IMG/VR virus record: IMGVR_UViG_3300010150_000150
Location: 1 to 24,880 of that record
Length of the DNA stretch: 24,880 nt
Reading direction: 5' to 3' (one strand)
DNA from: a virus
Shown piece after piece: positions 6,107-24,805 of this stretch. The notes below the pieces were generated by a model, which was not told the origin of the DNA, searched no databases, and was given only the letters and a program-made list of their open reading frames with translations. Position 1 is the first letter of the stretch, and every line of letters begins with the position of its first letter. Position numbers and translations under genes: made by a program.

Positions 6107-8002
6107 TTAAGATAAGGCTAGAGAAGGTGAGCCAAGAAGAACTGTACCTGTTACTTGTACAAAATAAGGTACAACATCTACTGAACCTGCTGCTGTTGAA
6201 AGTGTAATACTTCCGCCTACTGTTTTATATTCACTACCTACTGATAATGTTCTAGTACCTGTGCTGTCTTGTATAAATACAAATGTACCCCCCATACCTC
6301 CTGCTTCTGTTGTAGGATTACCTAATGTTAAATTGCCATCTAACGTCCAAACAAAATTAGTATATGAACCAAAGTCAGGAGTAGTTGTTGCATTTGCAGA
6401 TACAGTTTGTGTAGCTGCAATTACTCCACCAGTTAAAGTTCCACCTGCTAAAGGAAGATGATTACCAATACTTGTTGCCATAGTAGCTGATAAGTTTGTT
6501 ATAACTGTATTAATAGATGTAATAGCTAAAGTTCTATTATTAATACTTGTTGCTACTGTTGCAGATAAATTATCTACTACAGTATTAATAGATGTTATTG
6601 CATTTATATTGGTTGTAATATTAGTATTACTATTATTTATACTTGTTGCTAATGTAGAAGATAAATTTGCAATAACAGTATTAATAGATGTAATAGCAGA
6701 AGAATTATCTGCATTAGCAATTGATGTAGCTAATGTTGCAGATAAATTTGTAATATAAGTATTAATAGAAGTTATAGCTGTTGTTCTATTATTAATAGAT
6801 GTAGCCATAGTTGCAGATAAATTACCTACTACAGTATTAATAGATGTAATAGCATTAGTATTTGTTGTAATATTAGTATTACTATTGTTAATGCTAGTTG
6901 CCATAGTTGCAGATAAATTACCTACTACAGTATTAATAGATGTTATTGCGGCTGCATTGACTGATGTAAGAGCACTTACTCCTGCAACAACACTATTAAT
7001 AGAAGTAATAGCATTAGTGTTTGTTGTAATATTTGTATTAGAATTATTAATAGAAGTTGCCATAGTTGCAGAAAGACTTGCAACTGTAGCAGACATTGCA
7101 ACATTATCACCGCCTATAACAAATGATGTCGCACTAACAACACCAAATGTTTGATTTGTATTAAGAGCAACTGTACCTGAACCAGTAATATTAGTTGTTG
7201 TTACATTATTTTCTGTTAAATGTATTCCAGTTCCTGCCTTAACTGCAGTCATAGTACCTGCACCTGCAAGACCAGTAATGTTAGAGCCATCTCCATATAA
7301 GAATGTTGCACTAACAATACTTGTTGTAATGTTGTCTACAGTAAGGTTACCTGAAATACTTGTTGAACCTGATACACCAAAGTTACCACCTACTTTTAAA
7401 TTACCACCTATAGATGTATTTCCTGCAATAGAAACTGTACCTGAAATATTTGTATTACCAGCTATTGCCATAGTACCTGAAACAGATACATTATTTTCTA
7501 CATAAAGAGAAGAACCAGAAAGAGTGCCACCAATAAATGCATTAGCAGAAATGGTTGTTGTGGCAGTTACATCTGTAATGCGACCTTGTGCATCTACAGT
7601 AATTGTATTCATAGGTCCATAAGAACCTGCAGAAACAGAAGTATCTGCTATAGCAAATGTAGGATTACCTGCAGTACCGTCTGCATTAGTAATTGTTACA
7701 CCTGTAGAAGCAGTTAATGTTCTACCAAATTTTGTACTACCATCTTCTGCAACAATACCAGTTACTAAAGAAGAACCTGCGGCTGCTGCATTAAGACCAG
7801 AAACATTAGTAGTAAGTGTTACACCATTATATTGAAAGCTACCATTAATATTAACAGTATTTTGAGAAAGCTGTAAAGGTGTAGAATTGCCATTACCATC
7901 ACGTACAGTAATAGGTGTACCTGTTGGAACACCTGCATTATTGTTATTCATTTGAAGCAAATCAAGATATGAATTTGCTATTTGTTTTCCTGTTAAACTC
8001 AT
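6107..8002 (-). CDS. Fibre protein with beta-repeat shaft and Ser/Thr/Asn coiled-coil repeats
   Basis: A 631-residue protein. I chose the ATG at 8000-8002, which overlaps the preceding stop as TAATG, over the TTG five codons upstream. The N terminus (MSLTGKQIANSYLDLLQMNN) may attach to the particle. The first third is beta-type, with short-period repeats such as VSGTMAIAGNTNISG and SIGGNLKVGGNF that look like a shaft. The middle carries seven AITSIN motifs, six of them followed by a [VIT]xNLS[AS]TxATSI unit. Hydrophobic residues recur every 3-4 positions, as in trimeric phage-fibre coiled coils. The C terminus (LPLAGGTLTGG, then WTLDGNLTLGNP and GGTFVFIQDSTGTRTL) looks like a beta-rich tip. 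Likely a trimeric tail fibre; its receptor is unknown. Confidence 0.75.
   Translation of the reverse strand: MSLTGKQIANSYLDLLQMNNNNAGVPTGTPITVRDGNGNSTPLQLSQNTVNINGSFQYNGVTLTTNVSGLNAAAAGSSLVTGIVAEDGSTKFGRTLTASTGVTITNADGTAGNPTFAIADTSVSAGSYGPMNTITVDAQGRITDVTATTTISANAFIGGTLSGSSLYVENNVSVSGTMAIAGNTNISGTVSIAGNTSIGGNLKVGGNFGVSGSTSISGNLTVDNITTSIVSATFLYGDGSNITGLAGAGTMTAVKAGTGIHLTENNVTTTNITGSGTVALNTNQTFGVVSATSFVIGGDNVAMSATVASLSATMATSINNSNTNITTNTNAITSINSVVAGVSALTSVNAAAITSINTVVGNLSATMATSINNSNTNITTNTNAITSINTVVGNLSATMATSINNRTTAITSINTYITNLSATLATSIANADNSSAITSINTVIANLSSTLATSINNSNTNITTNINAITSINTVVDNLSATVATSINNRTLAITSINTVITNLSATMATSIGNHLPLAGGTLTGGVIAATQTVSANATTTPDFGSYTNFVWTLDGNLTLGNPTTEAGGMGGTFVFIQDSTGTRTLSVGSEYKTVGGSITLSTAAGSVDVVPYFVQVTGTVLLGSPSLALS
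6470..7090. repeat. Coding tandem repeats of the fibre coiled coil
   Basis: This AT-rich stretch repeats the DNA for the AITSINTVVGNLSATMATSI unit. For example TTGCAGATAAATTACCTACT occurs both near 6810 and near 6906. The repeat length follows the protein unit and the frame stays open, so these are protein repeats and not a non-coding array. Confidence 0.7.
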
Positions 8003-8286
8003 TATATCAAATTCCAATACTTTAAGTTAGCGTTCCATTGCGAAGTAGCTTGTTGCCACTGTAAGTTTATTCCACCATCACCTTCAGGTCTTGCATCACG
8101 AATAAAGTATCTTTCCTCAATTCTTGGTGATTTATTTTGAGGATGGCTTTTTAAATCATACGAACCATCATAATCTTTAGGGCATTGCATCATACCCATA
8201 CTATTCTTTTTCAATTGGTTTAGTTTATATCTAAAACCACAAGTATCGCAGATAGCTAATACATTTTTTCTTCCTGATGTAGACAT
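8002..8286 (-). CDS. Small CxxC (zinc-ribbon-like) virion-cluster protein
   Basis: A 94-residue protein whose ATG overlaps the preceding stop (TAATG). Residues 13-17 are CDTCG, followed by FRYKLNQLKKN and then a third cysteine in MMQCPKDYDG. This C-x2-C...C-P-x-D-Y pattern resembles a half or degenerate zinc ribbon. I recognise the CDxCG-x-x-Y-K...CPxDY layout from hypothetical proteins encoded near tail genes of marine phages. Only three cysteines are present, so metal binding would need a fourth ligand from a histidine, an aspartate or another subunit. It sits between a connector-type protein and a fibre, which suggests a small tail component; the function is unknown. Confidence 0.6.
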   Translation of the reverse strand: MSTSGRKNVLAICDTCGFRYKLNQLKKNSMGMMQCPKDYDGSYDLKSHPQNKSPRIEERYFIRDARPEGDGGINLQWQQATSQWNANLKYWNLI

Positions 8287-21332: not shown

Positions 21333-22898
21333 TTATGTTCTCCAATATGCAACCCTTCTTTTTGTTCTTGGGCTATCTTCCCATTCCGGGTCTTCTGGAT
21401 GTATTAAGTTCCAACTGTCCTTCATATAATGAATTGCCATTGTCATACAATCTACCTGATCATCGTGTGAACCTGCAGGAAAAGACATACATTCAGCAAA
21501 CAAATCGTCTGACCATGTTTTGTCTTTTGGTATCCATACACGACCTGCTTCCATCAAAGGAGTAGAAGCATAGACACGAGCAACCTTATCTCTATCTGGA
21601 AGATAGTCTAATACAGGAAGACCTGCTCTTCTCATGTCTTGAATAAGAGACTGACCAGAAGCTTTCTTTTCTATTATACATACATCTGGTTTATATTGTG
21701 CATATACTTCTTGTGCTTTACGTCTTAGTTCTGGATATTCAAATCTACCTCTTATATTACCTAATAGTATTAAGTTAGAAGTTATTTGTTCTGTTCCATA
21801 TTCATCTTCTTCATATGACCTAAATATTCCCCATGTTTGTATTACACTATAGTCAGCAGTACGTGCAGTACTAAAAGCAGTATCATATGTCTGTATTATA
21901 AAGTCACATGGTGGAGGCTCATCATCATCCCACCAACTTATCCATTTCTTTTTAATAATACCACCATCATCAGGTGATGGGTCTTGCATATATAAAGAGT
22001 TCCAGTATCTACTACCATTAGAACTTCTAATCTCCATCTCATCTATCTTTAATAGCTCGTCTGGTTTCCATTCAGGAAAGTAAGAAGAACCTTCTGGTAA
22101 GTCAAGAAGCTCTGCTGCTTCTTCATTAAGCCACGCAGGTATACTAATTACTTCCCAAGGGTTTGGCGTTTCTTCTGCGTTCTGTTCTTGCTTTAACAGC
22201 CAACCACACAAATCGTCATAGTGATATCTTGTATTAATAATAATGATTGCACCATTAGGCATAATACGAGTACGTAGACCTGCAGGATACCATTCCTTAA
22301 TATAACGTCTACCTGCTTCACTGAAGCTGTCTTCTTCAGACATAACATCATCTAGTAATGCTACGTGAGCACCTCGACCCGCAACCTGACTTCTTACACC
22401 TGCTGCATAATAAGACCCGTTTTTATTTGTCTTCCATTTACCTGCTGCCTTCACATCACTTCTAAGAGACACACCACGGAATATCTTTTGAAACCTGTCT
22501 GTGTTTACAATGTCTCGTACAGTTCTACCAAAGTCACTTGCAAGCTGGTCACTGTGTGAGACAGACATAATCTCATGGTGACCAAAGTTACCAATGTACC
22601 ACGCAGGAAATAGTTTACTACATATTACTGACTTAGAAGAACGGGGTGGTAAGAATACCATAAGTCTTTTTGTACTACCATCTAACACACCCTGTAGCTT
22701 TTCACATAGTAGTTCTATGTGTCTTCCCATCTTAAAGTCAGAAACAATGGTAGGAGCAAATATCTTTACAAAGGTAAGGAAGTCATCCTTTGCCTTTATG
22801 TTTGCATAGTGATGCATCTTTTCTCTTAGGTCCAGAAATAGAGTTACATTGTGTATTTCTTCTGGTGTTCTATTTTCATCTACTTCTAAATCTAACAT
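21333..22898 (-). CDS. terL: Terminase large subunit (packaging ATPase/nuclease)
   Basis: A 521-residue protein, normal length for the family. The ATPase domain has the phage-type Walker A variant PPRSSKS at 84-90 and Walker B ALLDD at 180-184. It is followed by the nuclease domain: DTAFSTARTADYSVIQTW with Asp339, VCIIEKKASGQS with Glu410, and GSHDDQVDCMTMA with Asp479, Asp480 and Asp483. These are the expected RNase H-type metal ligands. The ATG follows the preceding stop directly, with GGAGAG nine bases upstream. It translocates DNA into the prohead and cuts it. No small terminase is recognisable beside it. Confidence 0.9.
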   Translation of the reverse strand: MLDLEVDENRTPEEIHNVTLFLDLREKMHHYANIKAKDDFLTFVKIFAPTIVSDFKMGRHIELLCEKLQGVLDGSTKRLMVFLPPRSSKSVICSKLFPAWYIGNFGHHEIMSVSHSDQLASDFGRTVRDIVNTDRFQKIFRGVSLRSDVKAAGKWKTNKNGSYYAAGVRSQVAGRGAHVALLDDVMSEEDSFSEAGRRYIKEWYPAGLRTRIMPNGAIIIINTRYHYDDLCGWLLKQEQNAEETPNPWEVISIPAWLNEEAAELLDLPEGSSYFPEWKPDELLKIDEMEIRSSNGSRYWNSLYMQDPSPDDGGIIKKKWISWWDDDEPPPCDFIIQTYDTAFSTARTADYSVIQTWGIFRSYEEDEYGTEQITSNLILLGNIRGRFEYPELRRKAQEVYAQYKPDVCIIEKKASGQSLIQDMRRAGLPVLDYLPDRDKVARVYASTPLMEAGRVWIPKDKTWSDDLFAECMSFPAGSHDDQVDCMTMAIHYMKDSWNLIHPEDPEWEDSPRTKRRVAYWRT

Positions 22899-23111
22899 TT
22901 AAGTAAGCTCTCCATCTACAGAGAGACAACCAATTTGCTTTATTTCAAAAGGCATATTATATTCTTTCCATATTCCTTTTAAATCATGCTGCATTTTCCC
23001 TACTCTAGCTAGACACTCTTCTTGTCTTCTATACGGACCGTATGTATCCGATACTTCCATACAGTTATCTGGACTGCCTATTACACAGGCAACAATCATT
23101 GCTTTAAACAT
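22899..23111 (-). CDS. Small Cys-containing exported-type protein, first gene of the leftward block
   Basis: A 70-residue protein. I chose the ATG at 23109-23111 because GGAAGG lies just upstream; a longer frame would read through the 22-bp dyad repeat. The N terminus MFKAMIVACVIGSP is short and hydrophobic, signal-like. Four cysteines follow the layout C9, C17, C34 and C62 (ACVIG, DNCMEV, EECLAR, IGCLS), with GPYRRQEECLARVGKMQHDL between them. I know similar short proteins with this Cys pattern from marine phages, where they are unannotated. Periplasmic disulfide formation is plausible. It immediately precedes the terminase. Confidence 0.6.
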   Translation of the reverse strand: MFKAMIVACVIGSPDNCMEVSDTYGPYRRQEECLARVGKMQHDLKGIWKEYNMPFEIKQIGCLSVDGELT

Positions 23112-23131
23112 TTTAATTTTCCTTCCATATA

Positions 23132-23153
23132 AGTGTTGCAAAAATGCCACACC
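23132..23153. promoter_or_regulatory. 22-bp dyad repeat, copy 1
   Basis: The pattern AGTGTTGCA-N6-YCACACC; here the last block is CCACACC. The arms GTGTTGC and GCCACAC pair at six of seven positions. It lies 20 bp upstream of the start of the first leftward gene, so a bound protein could control the late block. Confidence 0.65.
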
Positions 23154-23222
23154 TTATTAAAAAAATAAAATACCCCTATTGCGAAATCTGTAAAGATATG
23201 TTATTTTCTATTTAGACCCACC

Positions 23223-23240
23223 GGGGTAAATATATACCCC
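23223..23240. repeat. GGGGTA/TACCCC hairpin
   Basis: GGGGTA, loop AATATA, TACCCC: a perfect six-pair stem. The same GGGGTATA/TATACCCC type of arm recurs at 24128-24147, and a single arm GGGGTATATTATAT occurs at 23408-23421. Confidence 0.5.
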
Positions 23241-23531
23241 CGAAGACATCCCGACACACCTACCAATACTATTCATTTACTATTATATTCATAATCTAAT
23301 TTAACTATATTATATATTATTATACTTCTTTTGTCAAATATTTTATATATACTAATTAGCCCCCGGCCTACTATGAAAGACCCTTTAATTTTTGAAAATA
23401 TATGGCAGGGGTATATTATATATATAAATAGACAGACAGTTTTTGGGTGGGGGTTCTACATATACTTTCTAAGACTGCACATATTTTAGGCATAACATCC
23501 TTTTTCTATCAAAGATTGCACAACCATAAGT

Positions 23532-23553
23532 AGTGTTGCAAAAATGTCACACC
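23532..23553. promoter_or_regulatory. 22-bp dyad repeat, copy 2
   Basis: It differs from copy 1 at one base (TCACACC instead of CCACACC) and lies exactly 400 bp from it. It falls within non-coding DNA in the middle of the divergent region. Confidence 0.65.
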
Positions 23554-23608
23554 AAAATCTAGCAGGATTGCTGAGTTTTTGCACAATTCTTAGGCAGAAG
23601 ATGTGTAT

Positions 23609-23630
23609 AGTGTTGCATTAATACCACACC
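23609..23630. promoter_or_regulatory. 22-bp dyad repeat, copy 3
   Basis: AGTGTTGCA, then TTAATA, then CCACACC. It has three differences from copy 1, all in the spacer or at its edge, while both outer blocks are kept. It lies 77 bp from copy 2. Confidence 0.65.
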
Positions 23631-23734
23631 CCCCTTCCCATGTCTTTACATCAATAGGTTGTATTCATTAGATATTATCAAGCTTTCCCCTAATTTTATT
23701 ACAATTTCCCCTTGTCTTTTGTTTCATCATTACC

Positions 23735-23824
23735 AGAACAAATGAAGAGAACAAACCAAGAACTTTGATGAGAACAAACGGGGAACAAAGATGAATTTTT
23801 CATCCAGAACAAACCCAGAACAAA
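23735..23824 (+). repeat. GAACAAA box array (three ~35-bp units, two boxes each)
   Basis: RGAACAAA starts at 23735, 23748, 23771, 23782, 23806 and 23817. The boxes fall in pairs 11-13 bp apart, and the pairs repeat every 35-36 bp. A small inverted repeat (GATGAA, TTT, TTCATC) at 23790-23804 lies in the second unit. The regular period on the DNA and the lack of an open frame fit iterons or an activator/replication-protein binding array. Confidence 0.65.
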
Positions 23825-23841
23825 CTACCCAAAATCGCTGG

Positions 23842-23929
23842 AATATTAGTATATAAACCCTTTACGAAGTAAAGGGTATTATATACTTATAACGCCCCAA
23901 ATCGACCAACCAGCCATGAGGTGCAAACC
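23842..23929 (+). promoter_or_regulatory. Hairpin-leader module 1, before the 60-aa gene
   Basis: AATATTAG is followed by AT-rich sequence and a perfect nine-pair hairpin at 23857-23877 (ACCCTTTAC, GAA, GTAAAGGGT). Then come CTTATAACGCC and ATCGACCAACCAG. The same order of elements precedes the next gene at 24113-24202. It could be a promoter or an RNA leader element. Confidence 0.6.
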
Positions 23930-24112
23930 ATGACGCAAAAATCAACAAGAGTTCTCGCATTATCCGATTTGGATTTGCAAGCGCAAATGATTATTTCTGA
24001 GCAAATCAGAAACCATCTGGAAAAAACTGGTTCAGTCTATCCAGACGAATGGGGATTTTCCAGCATTTCAGACGTTCAAATCCAATTCGATTTGAGTGCT
24101 GACATGCGCTGA
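23930..24112 (+). CDS. Small hypothetical protein, first rightward gene
   Basis: A 60-residue protein. The ATG at 23930-23932 is preferred because GAGGTG lies six bases upstream; the in-frame GTG at 23921 is part of that ribosome site. Sequence begins MTQKSTRVLALSDLDLQAQM, then a helix IISEQIRNHLEKTG, and the end DEWGFSSISDVQIQFDLSAD is acidic. No family is recognised. Its leader shares a hairpin module with the HhH protein gene, suggesting common control. A short acidic first gene of the early region could be a host-takeover or regulatory protein, but this is not supported by any motif. Confidence 0.6.
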   Translation: MTQKSTRVLALSDLDLQAQMIISEQIRNHLEKTGSVYPDEWGFSSISDVQIQFDLSADMR

Positions 24113-24202
24113 AATATTAGAATAATATATACCCCTTTAGGGGTATATTATATTATTCTTATAAACGCCTAAAACCAACCGACCAGAAAGGGTCAATCAA
24201 TC
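24113..24202 (+). promoter_or_regulatory. Hairpin-leader module 2, before the HhH protein gene
   Basis: AATATTAG (24113-24120), then a hairpin TATACCCC, TTTA, GGGGTATA at 24128-24147, then CTTATAAACGCC (24158-24169) and AACCGACCAG, ending at the ribosome site GAAAGGG. Elements and order match module 1, with a different stem sequence that still pairs. Confidence 0.6.
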
Positions 24203-24805
24203 ATGTTCAAAAAACACCAAACCAAAATCTCAAAATGGGCAATGCGTTCAGTAGACAATACCGCCAAGGTATGCTTGCTGGTATCTGCAACAATACAAAC
24301 TCAAACGCCAAGGGTATTTGATGAATATCGGGATATCCTAGACAAGGGGAAAGCTTCCCCATATTGCTGGGGAATGAAGGAACAAACATGGGACTATGTC
24401 CAACAAAACAAAAAACAGATATATCGTATCTTGAAAGATACCAAGCTTGGCAAGGTAAAGCTTGTTGATTGTCTTGTTGAATTATCCCGAATGGATGGGA
24501 TAGGACTGGCAAAGGCTGGCTTCATAATGCAATTATGTATCGGTGAAGTGGGCTGTATGGATACCCATAATCTGCAACGGTTCGGGCTGGATGCAAAAAC
24601 TTTCAAATTTGGAAAGACTGCATCTGACAAGCTTAGAAGAATGAAAGCAGAGTTATATATCCAAGCTTGTAATCAGCAGGGTGGTTGTGAGTACCTATGG
24701 GATAGCTGGTGCGAATTGATAGGCACAGAAAAATTCCCTGAGATTTACGGAACAGGCGAAGCGGTATCTAAGCTTCATTGTGAATGGTTAGGCATCAGAG
24801 CATAG
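24203..24805 (+). CDS. HhH-GPD DNA glycosylase-like protein
   Basis: A 200-residue protein with GAAAGGG ten bases upstream. Residues ~94-112 read LSRMDGIGLAKAGFIMQLC, matching the helix-hairpin-helix L-x-x-x-x-G-I-G-x-x-x-A of HhH-GPD glycosylases. MDTHNLQRFG at 119-128 corresponds to the V-D-T-H-V-x-R-V segment, with Asp120 at the catalytic Asp position. Lys104 is one position off the catalytic Lys of bifunctional members, so a monofunctional or altered activity is likelier. The C terminus has Cys and Trp residues but not the endonuclease III iron-sulfur spacing. Candidates are base removal or a modification-linked relative; HhH-GPD-derived enzymes for thymine hypermodification are known from phages. 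It lies in the rightward region. Confidence 0.65.
   Translation: MFKKHQTKISKWAMRSVDNTAKVCLLVSATIQTQTPRVFDEYRDILDKGKASPYCWGMKEQTWDYVQQNKKQIYRILKDTKLGKVKLVDCLVELSRMDGIGLAKAGFIMQLCIGEVGCMDTHNLQRFGLDAKTFKFGKTASDKLRRMKAELYIQACNQQGGCEYLWDSWCELIGTEKFPEIYGTGEAVSKLHCEWLGIRA

Follow-up and report, generated by a model that had tools for sequence, protein, structure and literature searches.

Candidate alphaproteobacterial-type LexA operators in the early-gene control region of an apparently lytic marine podovirus-like phage

What binds the short direct repeats that lie between the late and the early genes of this phage? The window, that is, the whole stretch of DNA analysed here, is a 24.9 kb viral fragment (24,880 nucleotides), in which a preliminary description had pointed to six RGAACAAA boxes, reading them as an iteron origin or a cooperative activator site and the box itself as one not known from any characterised phage origin. 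Our analysis suggests, with a probability of about 0.7, that the boxes form three alphaproteobacterial-type LexA operators in the rightward early-gene control region of a marine podovirus-like phage, with the host LexA as the proposed binder. The features involved are as follows.

21333–22898, leftward late block: terminase, large subunit (PF17289)
22899–23111, leftward late block: small ORF
23112–23734, no strand: AT-rich non-coding divergent region, with the late and early blocks on either side
23736–23739, + strand: isolated LexA-type half-site, GAAC (the preliminary description's box 23735), identified from the sequence; it precedes box 1 by 13 bp and is not N7-spaced
23749–23763, + strand: candidate LexA-type operator 1, GAACAAACCAAGAAC, third-best recA-matrix site of the window (11.0 bits)
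23772–23786, + strand: candidate LexA-type operator 2, GAACAAACGGGGAAC, best recA-matrix site of the window (19.9 bits)
23807–23821, + strand: candidate LexA-type operator 3, GAACAAACCCAGAAC, second-best recA-matrix site of the window (12.3 bits)
23836–23902, + strand: hairpin element (AATATTAG, stem-loop, CTTATAACGCC), directly downstream of the array, in the leader of the first rightward ORF
23930–24112, + strand: small early ORF, 60 aa counted from ATG, the gene next downstream of the array, without a family match
24203–24805, + strand: early gene, 200 aa, HhH DNA-glycosylase-like fold predicted, homologue of CRP-9 gp02

The region around the boxes was confirmed as non-coding (68% AT) and divergent, with leftward late genes on one side and small rightward ORFs from 23930 on the other. 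Alongside the terminase large subunit (PF17289), the leftward block encodes a portal-like, a GroES-like, and a capsid protein. The gene for the GroES-like co-chaperonin (PF00166; 18180–18596) is flanked by the portal and capsid genes, as it is in HTVC023P and CRP-901. Positions 6107–8017 of the minus strand hold a tail-fibre-like ORF of 636 aa with numerous short internal repeats (AITSINTVVGNLSATMATSINN), and a perfect TTGACA-17-TATAAT promoter lies at 23309–23337 on the minus strand, directed left at the late genes.

All six boxes were recovered on the plus strand, at 23735, 23748, 23771, 23782, 23806, and 23817. RGAACAAA matched 13 times in the window, with 3.27 matches expected from shuffles, and the densest 90 bp held six boxes compared with a maximum of two in 400 first-order Markov simulations. 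Their earlier arrangement, in pairs 11–13 bp apart within regular units of 35–36 bp, was not sustained, since the real pair starts are 23 and 35 bp apart. The unit of constant geometry is GAAC-N7-GAAC, 11 bp from start to start, at 23749/23760, 23772/23783, and 23807/23818. Box 23748 pairs with AGAACTTT at 23759, a sequence outside the RGAACAAA pattern; its half-site at 23760 continues with TTT and was therefore missed, so that the boxes had been paired in the wrong register. Elsewhere in the genome, the GAAC-N7-GAAC class did not exceed chance.

The box has a known counterpart: GAAC is the half-site of the LexA operator in Alphaproteobacteria, whose published LexA motif, GTTC-N7-GTTC, equals GAAC-N7-GAAC (PMC3323433, PMC8565304). 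The array contains three exact direct-repeat GAAC pairs with the 7-bp spacer. A LexA gene was found in 39 of the 51 alphaproteobacterial genomes sampled, and GAAC-N7-GAAC occurred within 450 bp upstream of recA in 67 of 80 alphaproteobacterial genes, nearly always directed towards the gene. Control spacings upstream of recA gave 0–3 occurrences for spacers 3–6, 8, 9, 12, and 13 (N6 1, N8 2) and 6–8 for N10–N11. We scanned both strands of the window with a 21-bp weight matrix trained solely on bacterial recA boxes. The three boxes took ranks 1–3 with 19.9, 12.3, and 11.0 bits, the next site scored 8.0, and for none of 1000 column-permuted matrices did the three best sites fall inside 150 bp. 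Genuine recA boxes scored 14.1–29.8 bits, a range that includes box 2 (19.9) and starts just above boxes 1 and 3.

Compared with the alphaproteobacterial recA operators, the phage boxes share the half-site, the direct-repeat orientation, the N7 spacing, the GAACAA..GAACAAA preference, and the plus-strand orientation towards the gene. They differ in number, as the recA promoters sampled carry one box as a rule whereas the phage array comprises three boxes and an extra half-site. No good sigma-70 promoter was found in the array region. Of the proposed cooperative activator site, the phased half-sites for a regulator next to the early genes are retained, the regulator itself being most probably the host LexA repressor.

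To assess conservation, we compared 30 non-redundant regions lying upstream of the terminase genes of relatives. When all 256 tetramers were scored as pairs at 13 spacings (3–15), GAAC-N7-GAAC showed the strongest enrichment, with 40 occurrences against 0.57 expected, distributed over 12 of the 30 regions. Other GAAC spacings were near expectation, except N18, which equals two 11-bp steps and occurred 12 times. The exact N7 pair was absent from the remaining 18 regions, including that of L004, a relative with 92% terminase identity. The closest relatives carry two boxes (L006, L027), three boxes (L008, L010), or a degenerate middle box (L003, L007), operator 3 being intact in L003, L007, L008, and L010, and several relatives have a single box. 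In the closest relatives, spacer letters vary but N7 and the site upstream of the same hairpin element stay constant. In a comparison of this interval across relatives, as the preliminary description had proposed, boxes and spacing are kept in several close relatives and lost in L004, where an extra palindrome copy, GTGTTGCAAAAATGTCACAC, takes their place. As the box number varies and the array is lost in L004, the array appears to be an exchangeable regulatory cassette rather than part of an essential core. LexA-type sites are found at the early control region at the same place in relatives, and in the relatives G011 and G020 all top matrix matches fall in the equivalent divergent intergenic region, with scores of up to 24 bits that lie within the span of genuine recA boxes. 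Around the DNA polymerase gene of relatives, matches were at chance level and mostly inside ORFs.

These comparisons bear on the iteron-type origin, in which a phage replication initiator would bind the phased repeats and open the adjacent AT-rich DNA. Tandem repeats with an 11-bp period in a non-coding region of 68% AT would suit such an origin, as would the very long arrays in other contigs and the cumulative GC skew of the relative G003, which turns at the array region (minimum at 28, maximum at 35733). The skew turn of G003 is also its transcription divergence point, and the skew cannot decide on an origin because the direction of transcription switches at the same points. Both motif and spacing belong to a known transcriptional operator and match recA promoters, the array is lost or replaced in the close relative L004, several relatives make do with a single box, and the region holds one DnaA-like box and no DnaA cluster. 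The early proteins scanned included no replication initiator family. We therefore regard the origin proposed earlier as unsupported and improbable; an operator function accounts better for the boxes.

Similar boxes were present in some named phages. In the 56 kb of the Roseobacter phage CRP-9 (MW514246; Rhodobacteraceae host), GAAC-N7-GAAC occurs exactly twice, at 55,612 and 55,641, both times inside the 1.25-kb divergent non-coding region of this phage and near its homologue of the 200-aa early protein. This homologue, gp02, likewise lies downstream of the boxes. The two phages share GAAC-N7-GAAC boxes in a divergent non-coding region and the 200-aa early gene, in which identity is 31.5%, and are otherwise distant. 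The CRP-9 publication makes no mention of LexA, SOS, or promoters. In CRP-804, one box lies in an intergenic gap downstream of a TTGACT −35-like hexamer. Boxes were absent from the non-coding end region of CRP-1, -13, -345, -207, and -603, CRP-9 being the only positive one of six CRP-1-type roseophages, and no such intergenic cluster was found in CRP-901 or the first 30 kb of HTVC023P. Their distribution among named phages is therefore patchy. A BLAST search with the array against named phages returned nothing useful.

Some relatives have 7–31 half-sites, and other viral contigs (L098, L100, L101, L106) carry 10–31 in 11-bp phase, at times in two divergent arms. In particular, 21 to 31 GAAC half-sites with an 11-bp period were observed at L098:4981–5247, L100:817–1184, and L101:2534–2947, the arrays of L100 and L101 having two divergent arms. 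G020 was assigned as a relative by gene content, with a terminase 38% identical to that of HTVC023P and the same reductase, polymerase, and MptE-like genes. Its divergent blocks are separated by a region with ten N7 pairs. Arrays of three half-sites were counted at least 120 times in viral contigs with the 11-bp pattern and at least 120 times with the 12-bp control, so that the raw viral counts cannot serve as proof; among the matches listed, 26 of 95 (11 bp) and 63 of 84 (12 bp) lay within ORFs of at least 150 codons. Only one of 385 alphaproteobacterial genomes had a three-half-site array.

Long arrays may be stronger switches, cooperative assemblies, or LexA sponges. As a sponge, the array would titrate the host LexA and raise SOS expression during infection with no control of a phage promoter. 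This would fit L098, L100, L101, and L106, whose 15–31 half-sites in both orientations exceed the needs of promoter control, and the near absence of three-half-site arrays from alphaproteobacterial genomes. Three sites per genome would, however, be outnumbered by LexA at its typical copy numbers, except when replication of the genome is extensive, and the array keeps its place at the early control region; for this array we consider titration alone very improbable.

With up to 31 half-sites, the longest arrays depart from the single-box arrangement typical of SOS promoters, so that a different binder of 11-bp direct repeats may be involved. Response regulators of the OmpR/PhoB/CtrA family bind such repeats, and a host protein of this type or an unrecognised phage protein might occupy the boxes. 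Arrays of 3 to 31 half-sites with an 11-bp period resemble the multi-site operators of response regulators, many early ORFs have no family match, and CtrA sites occur in alphaproteobacterial phages, where CtrA-dependent lytic deferment has been described (PMC9437464). Those phages resemble the window phage in having host regulator sites (candidate ones in the window phage) clustered within a large non-coding region that separates divergent blocks, and an 11-bp direct-repeat geometry; they differ in that the regulator is the cell-cycle protein CtrA rather than, as proposed here, the SOS protein LexA, and the region studied here lacks the CtrA motif, with no TTAA-N7-TTAA site in 23112–24202. Searches of the array region disclosed no CtrA, PhoB-like, or DnaA clusters. 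With neither a CtrA nor a PhoB-like motif in the region, and with the half-site, N7 spacing, and flanking preferences matching the LexA boxes of recA promoters, a different regulator seems unlikely, although less so than an origin.

The genes downstream of the candidate LexA operators were examined for possible functions. The 200-aa early protein had no match in Pfam or PHROG. Its AlphaFold model is confident and all-helical (pLDDT 94), and a PDB fold search with this model returned nearly exclusively HhH-type DNA glycosylases at the top (OGG1, EndoIII, MutY), none of the matches being individually significant (best E 0.17). The sequence contains a G-x-G turn and an invariant D-x-H. Members of the family are common to phages of Alphaproteobacteria and one phage of Microcystis. 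A DNA-repair-like product, as the predicted fold suggests, would fit an SOS operator.

Two repeated elements accompany the array. A hairpin whose flanks are conserved (AATATTAG, stem-loop, CTTATAACGC) occurs at 23836–23902 and 24107–24173, in each case ahead of one of the first two rightward ORFs; the stem letters differ between copies with pairing retained, and L004 has three copies. The element is possibly an RNA processing or attenuation site. A palindrome of the form GTGTnnCAnnnnTRnnACAC, the GTGTTGCAAAAATGTCACAC type, is present in three copies (23133–23152, 23533–23552, 23610–23629) and recurs in relatives. The additional copy that replaces the array in L004 suggests a second operator for another regulator.

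By terminase and portal, the nearest named phages are the Pelagibacter phages HTVC023P and HTVC027P, with the roseophages CRP-901 and CRP-902 further down (33–42% identity); DSL-LC04, whose listed host is gammaproteobacterial, is also among them. The DNA polymerase of G003 likewise has pelagiphages and roseophages as its nearest named relatives, and the hosts of the nearest phages by terminase, portal, and polymerase are mostly Alphaproteobacteria. G003 is a 54.8 kb contig that we regard as near-complete because its 27-bp ends match, and it encodes a T7-type primase-helicase, a family A DNA polymerase, endonuclease I, and a B12-type ribonucleotide reductase. Bacterial genomes scanned with the terminase yielded no relative of the window phage, and no tRNAs were found in four loci tested.

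Control of phage genes by the host LexA has been described, mainly in temperate phages. No sign of such a temperate life style was found here with the tyrosine integrase (PF00589) as marker, which was detected in 0 of 19 related records, near-complete ones included. These records comprise G003 and 18 others, 17 of which are related to the window phage by terminase or early genes. The S24 (LexA/CI) domain PF00717 was likewise detected in 0 of 19 and 0 of 20 records, and a phage-encoded LexA/CI-like repressor is thus unsupported as the binder. The related CRP-901 and CRP-902 are strictly lytic according to their authors (PMC10149686). From its gene content, the lineage of the window phage is apparently lytic and non-integrating.

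The closest precedent is GIL01 of Bacillus thuringiensis, in which the host LexA acts on a full site and a half-site at the early promoter P1 (PMC4551915, PMC6182141). Common to both phages are LexA-type sites with an additional half-site at the early control region, a small ORF nearby with no assigned function, and, in the lineage of the window phage, the lack of a detectable S24-type CI/LexA-like repressor. GIL01 differs as a temperate tectivirus of a Gram-positive host with a palindromic LexA motif, in which the small phage protein gp7 assists LexA, whereas the window phage looks non-integrating. The searched papers on this phage group make no mention of LexA (PMC8528129, PMC12629253, PMC9599517, PMC10149686), and we found no literature description of multi-site LexA-type arrays in integrase-less marine phages.

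Under the LexA reading, the host LexA would occupy the three operators and hold early transcription down. DNA damage would then lead to RecA-stimulated self-cleavage of LexA and free the early promoter, so that the early genes, including that for the predicted HhH-type DNA-repair-like protein, would respond as part of the host SOS regulon. We infer LexA binding, repression rather than mere tuning, the exact promoter, and an alphaproteobacterial host bearing LexA.

A broader and rather speculative proposal is that early-region LexA half-site arrays, of 3 to ~30 half-sites with one per DNA turn, are widespread in apparently non-integrating marine alphaproteobacterial phages. LexA might assemble along such DNA as an SOS-gated switch or a sponge within an exclusively lytic programme, which would be an SOS counterpart of lytic deferment. 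The LexA reading is a prediction from sequence that can be tested, and the array could serve as a host-range marker, pointing to hosts whose LexA reads GAAC-N7-GAAC. If it is true, the start of infection would be tied to the DNA-damage state of the host, and, given a lineage in which no integrase was found and whose relatives are HTVC023P-like pelagiphages and roseophages, some lytic marine phages may sense host damage, for example from sunlight, before infection.
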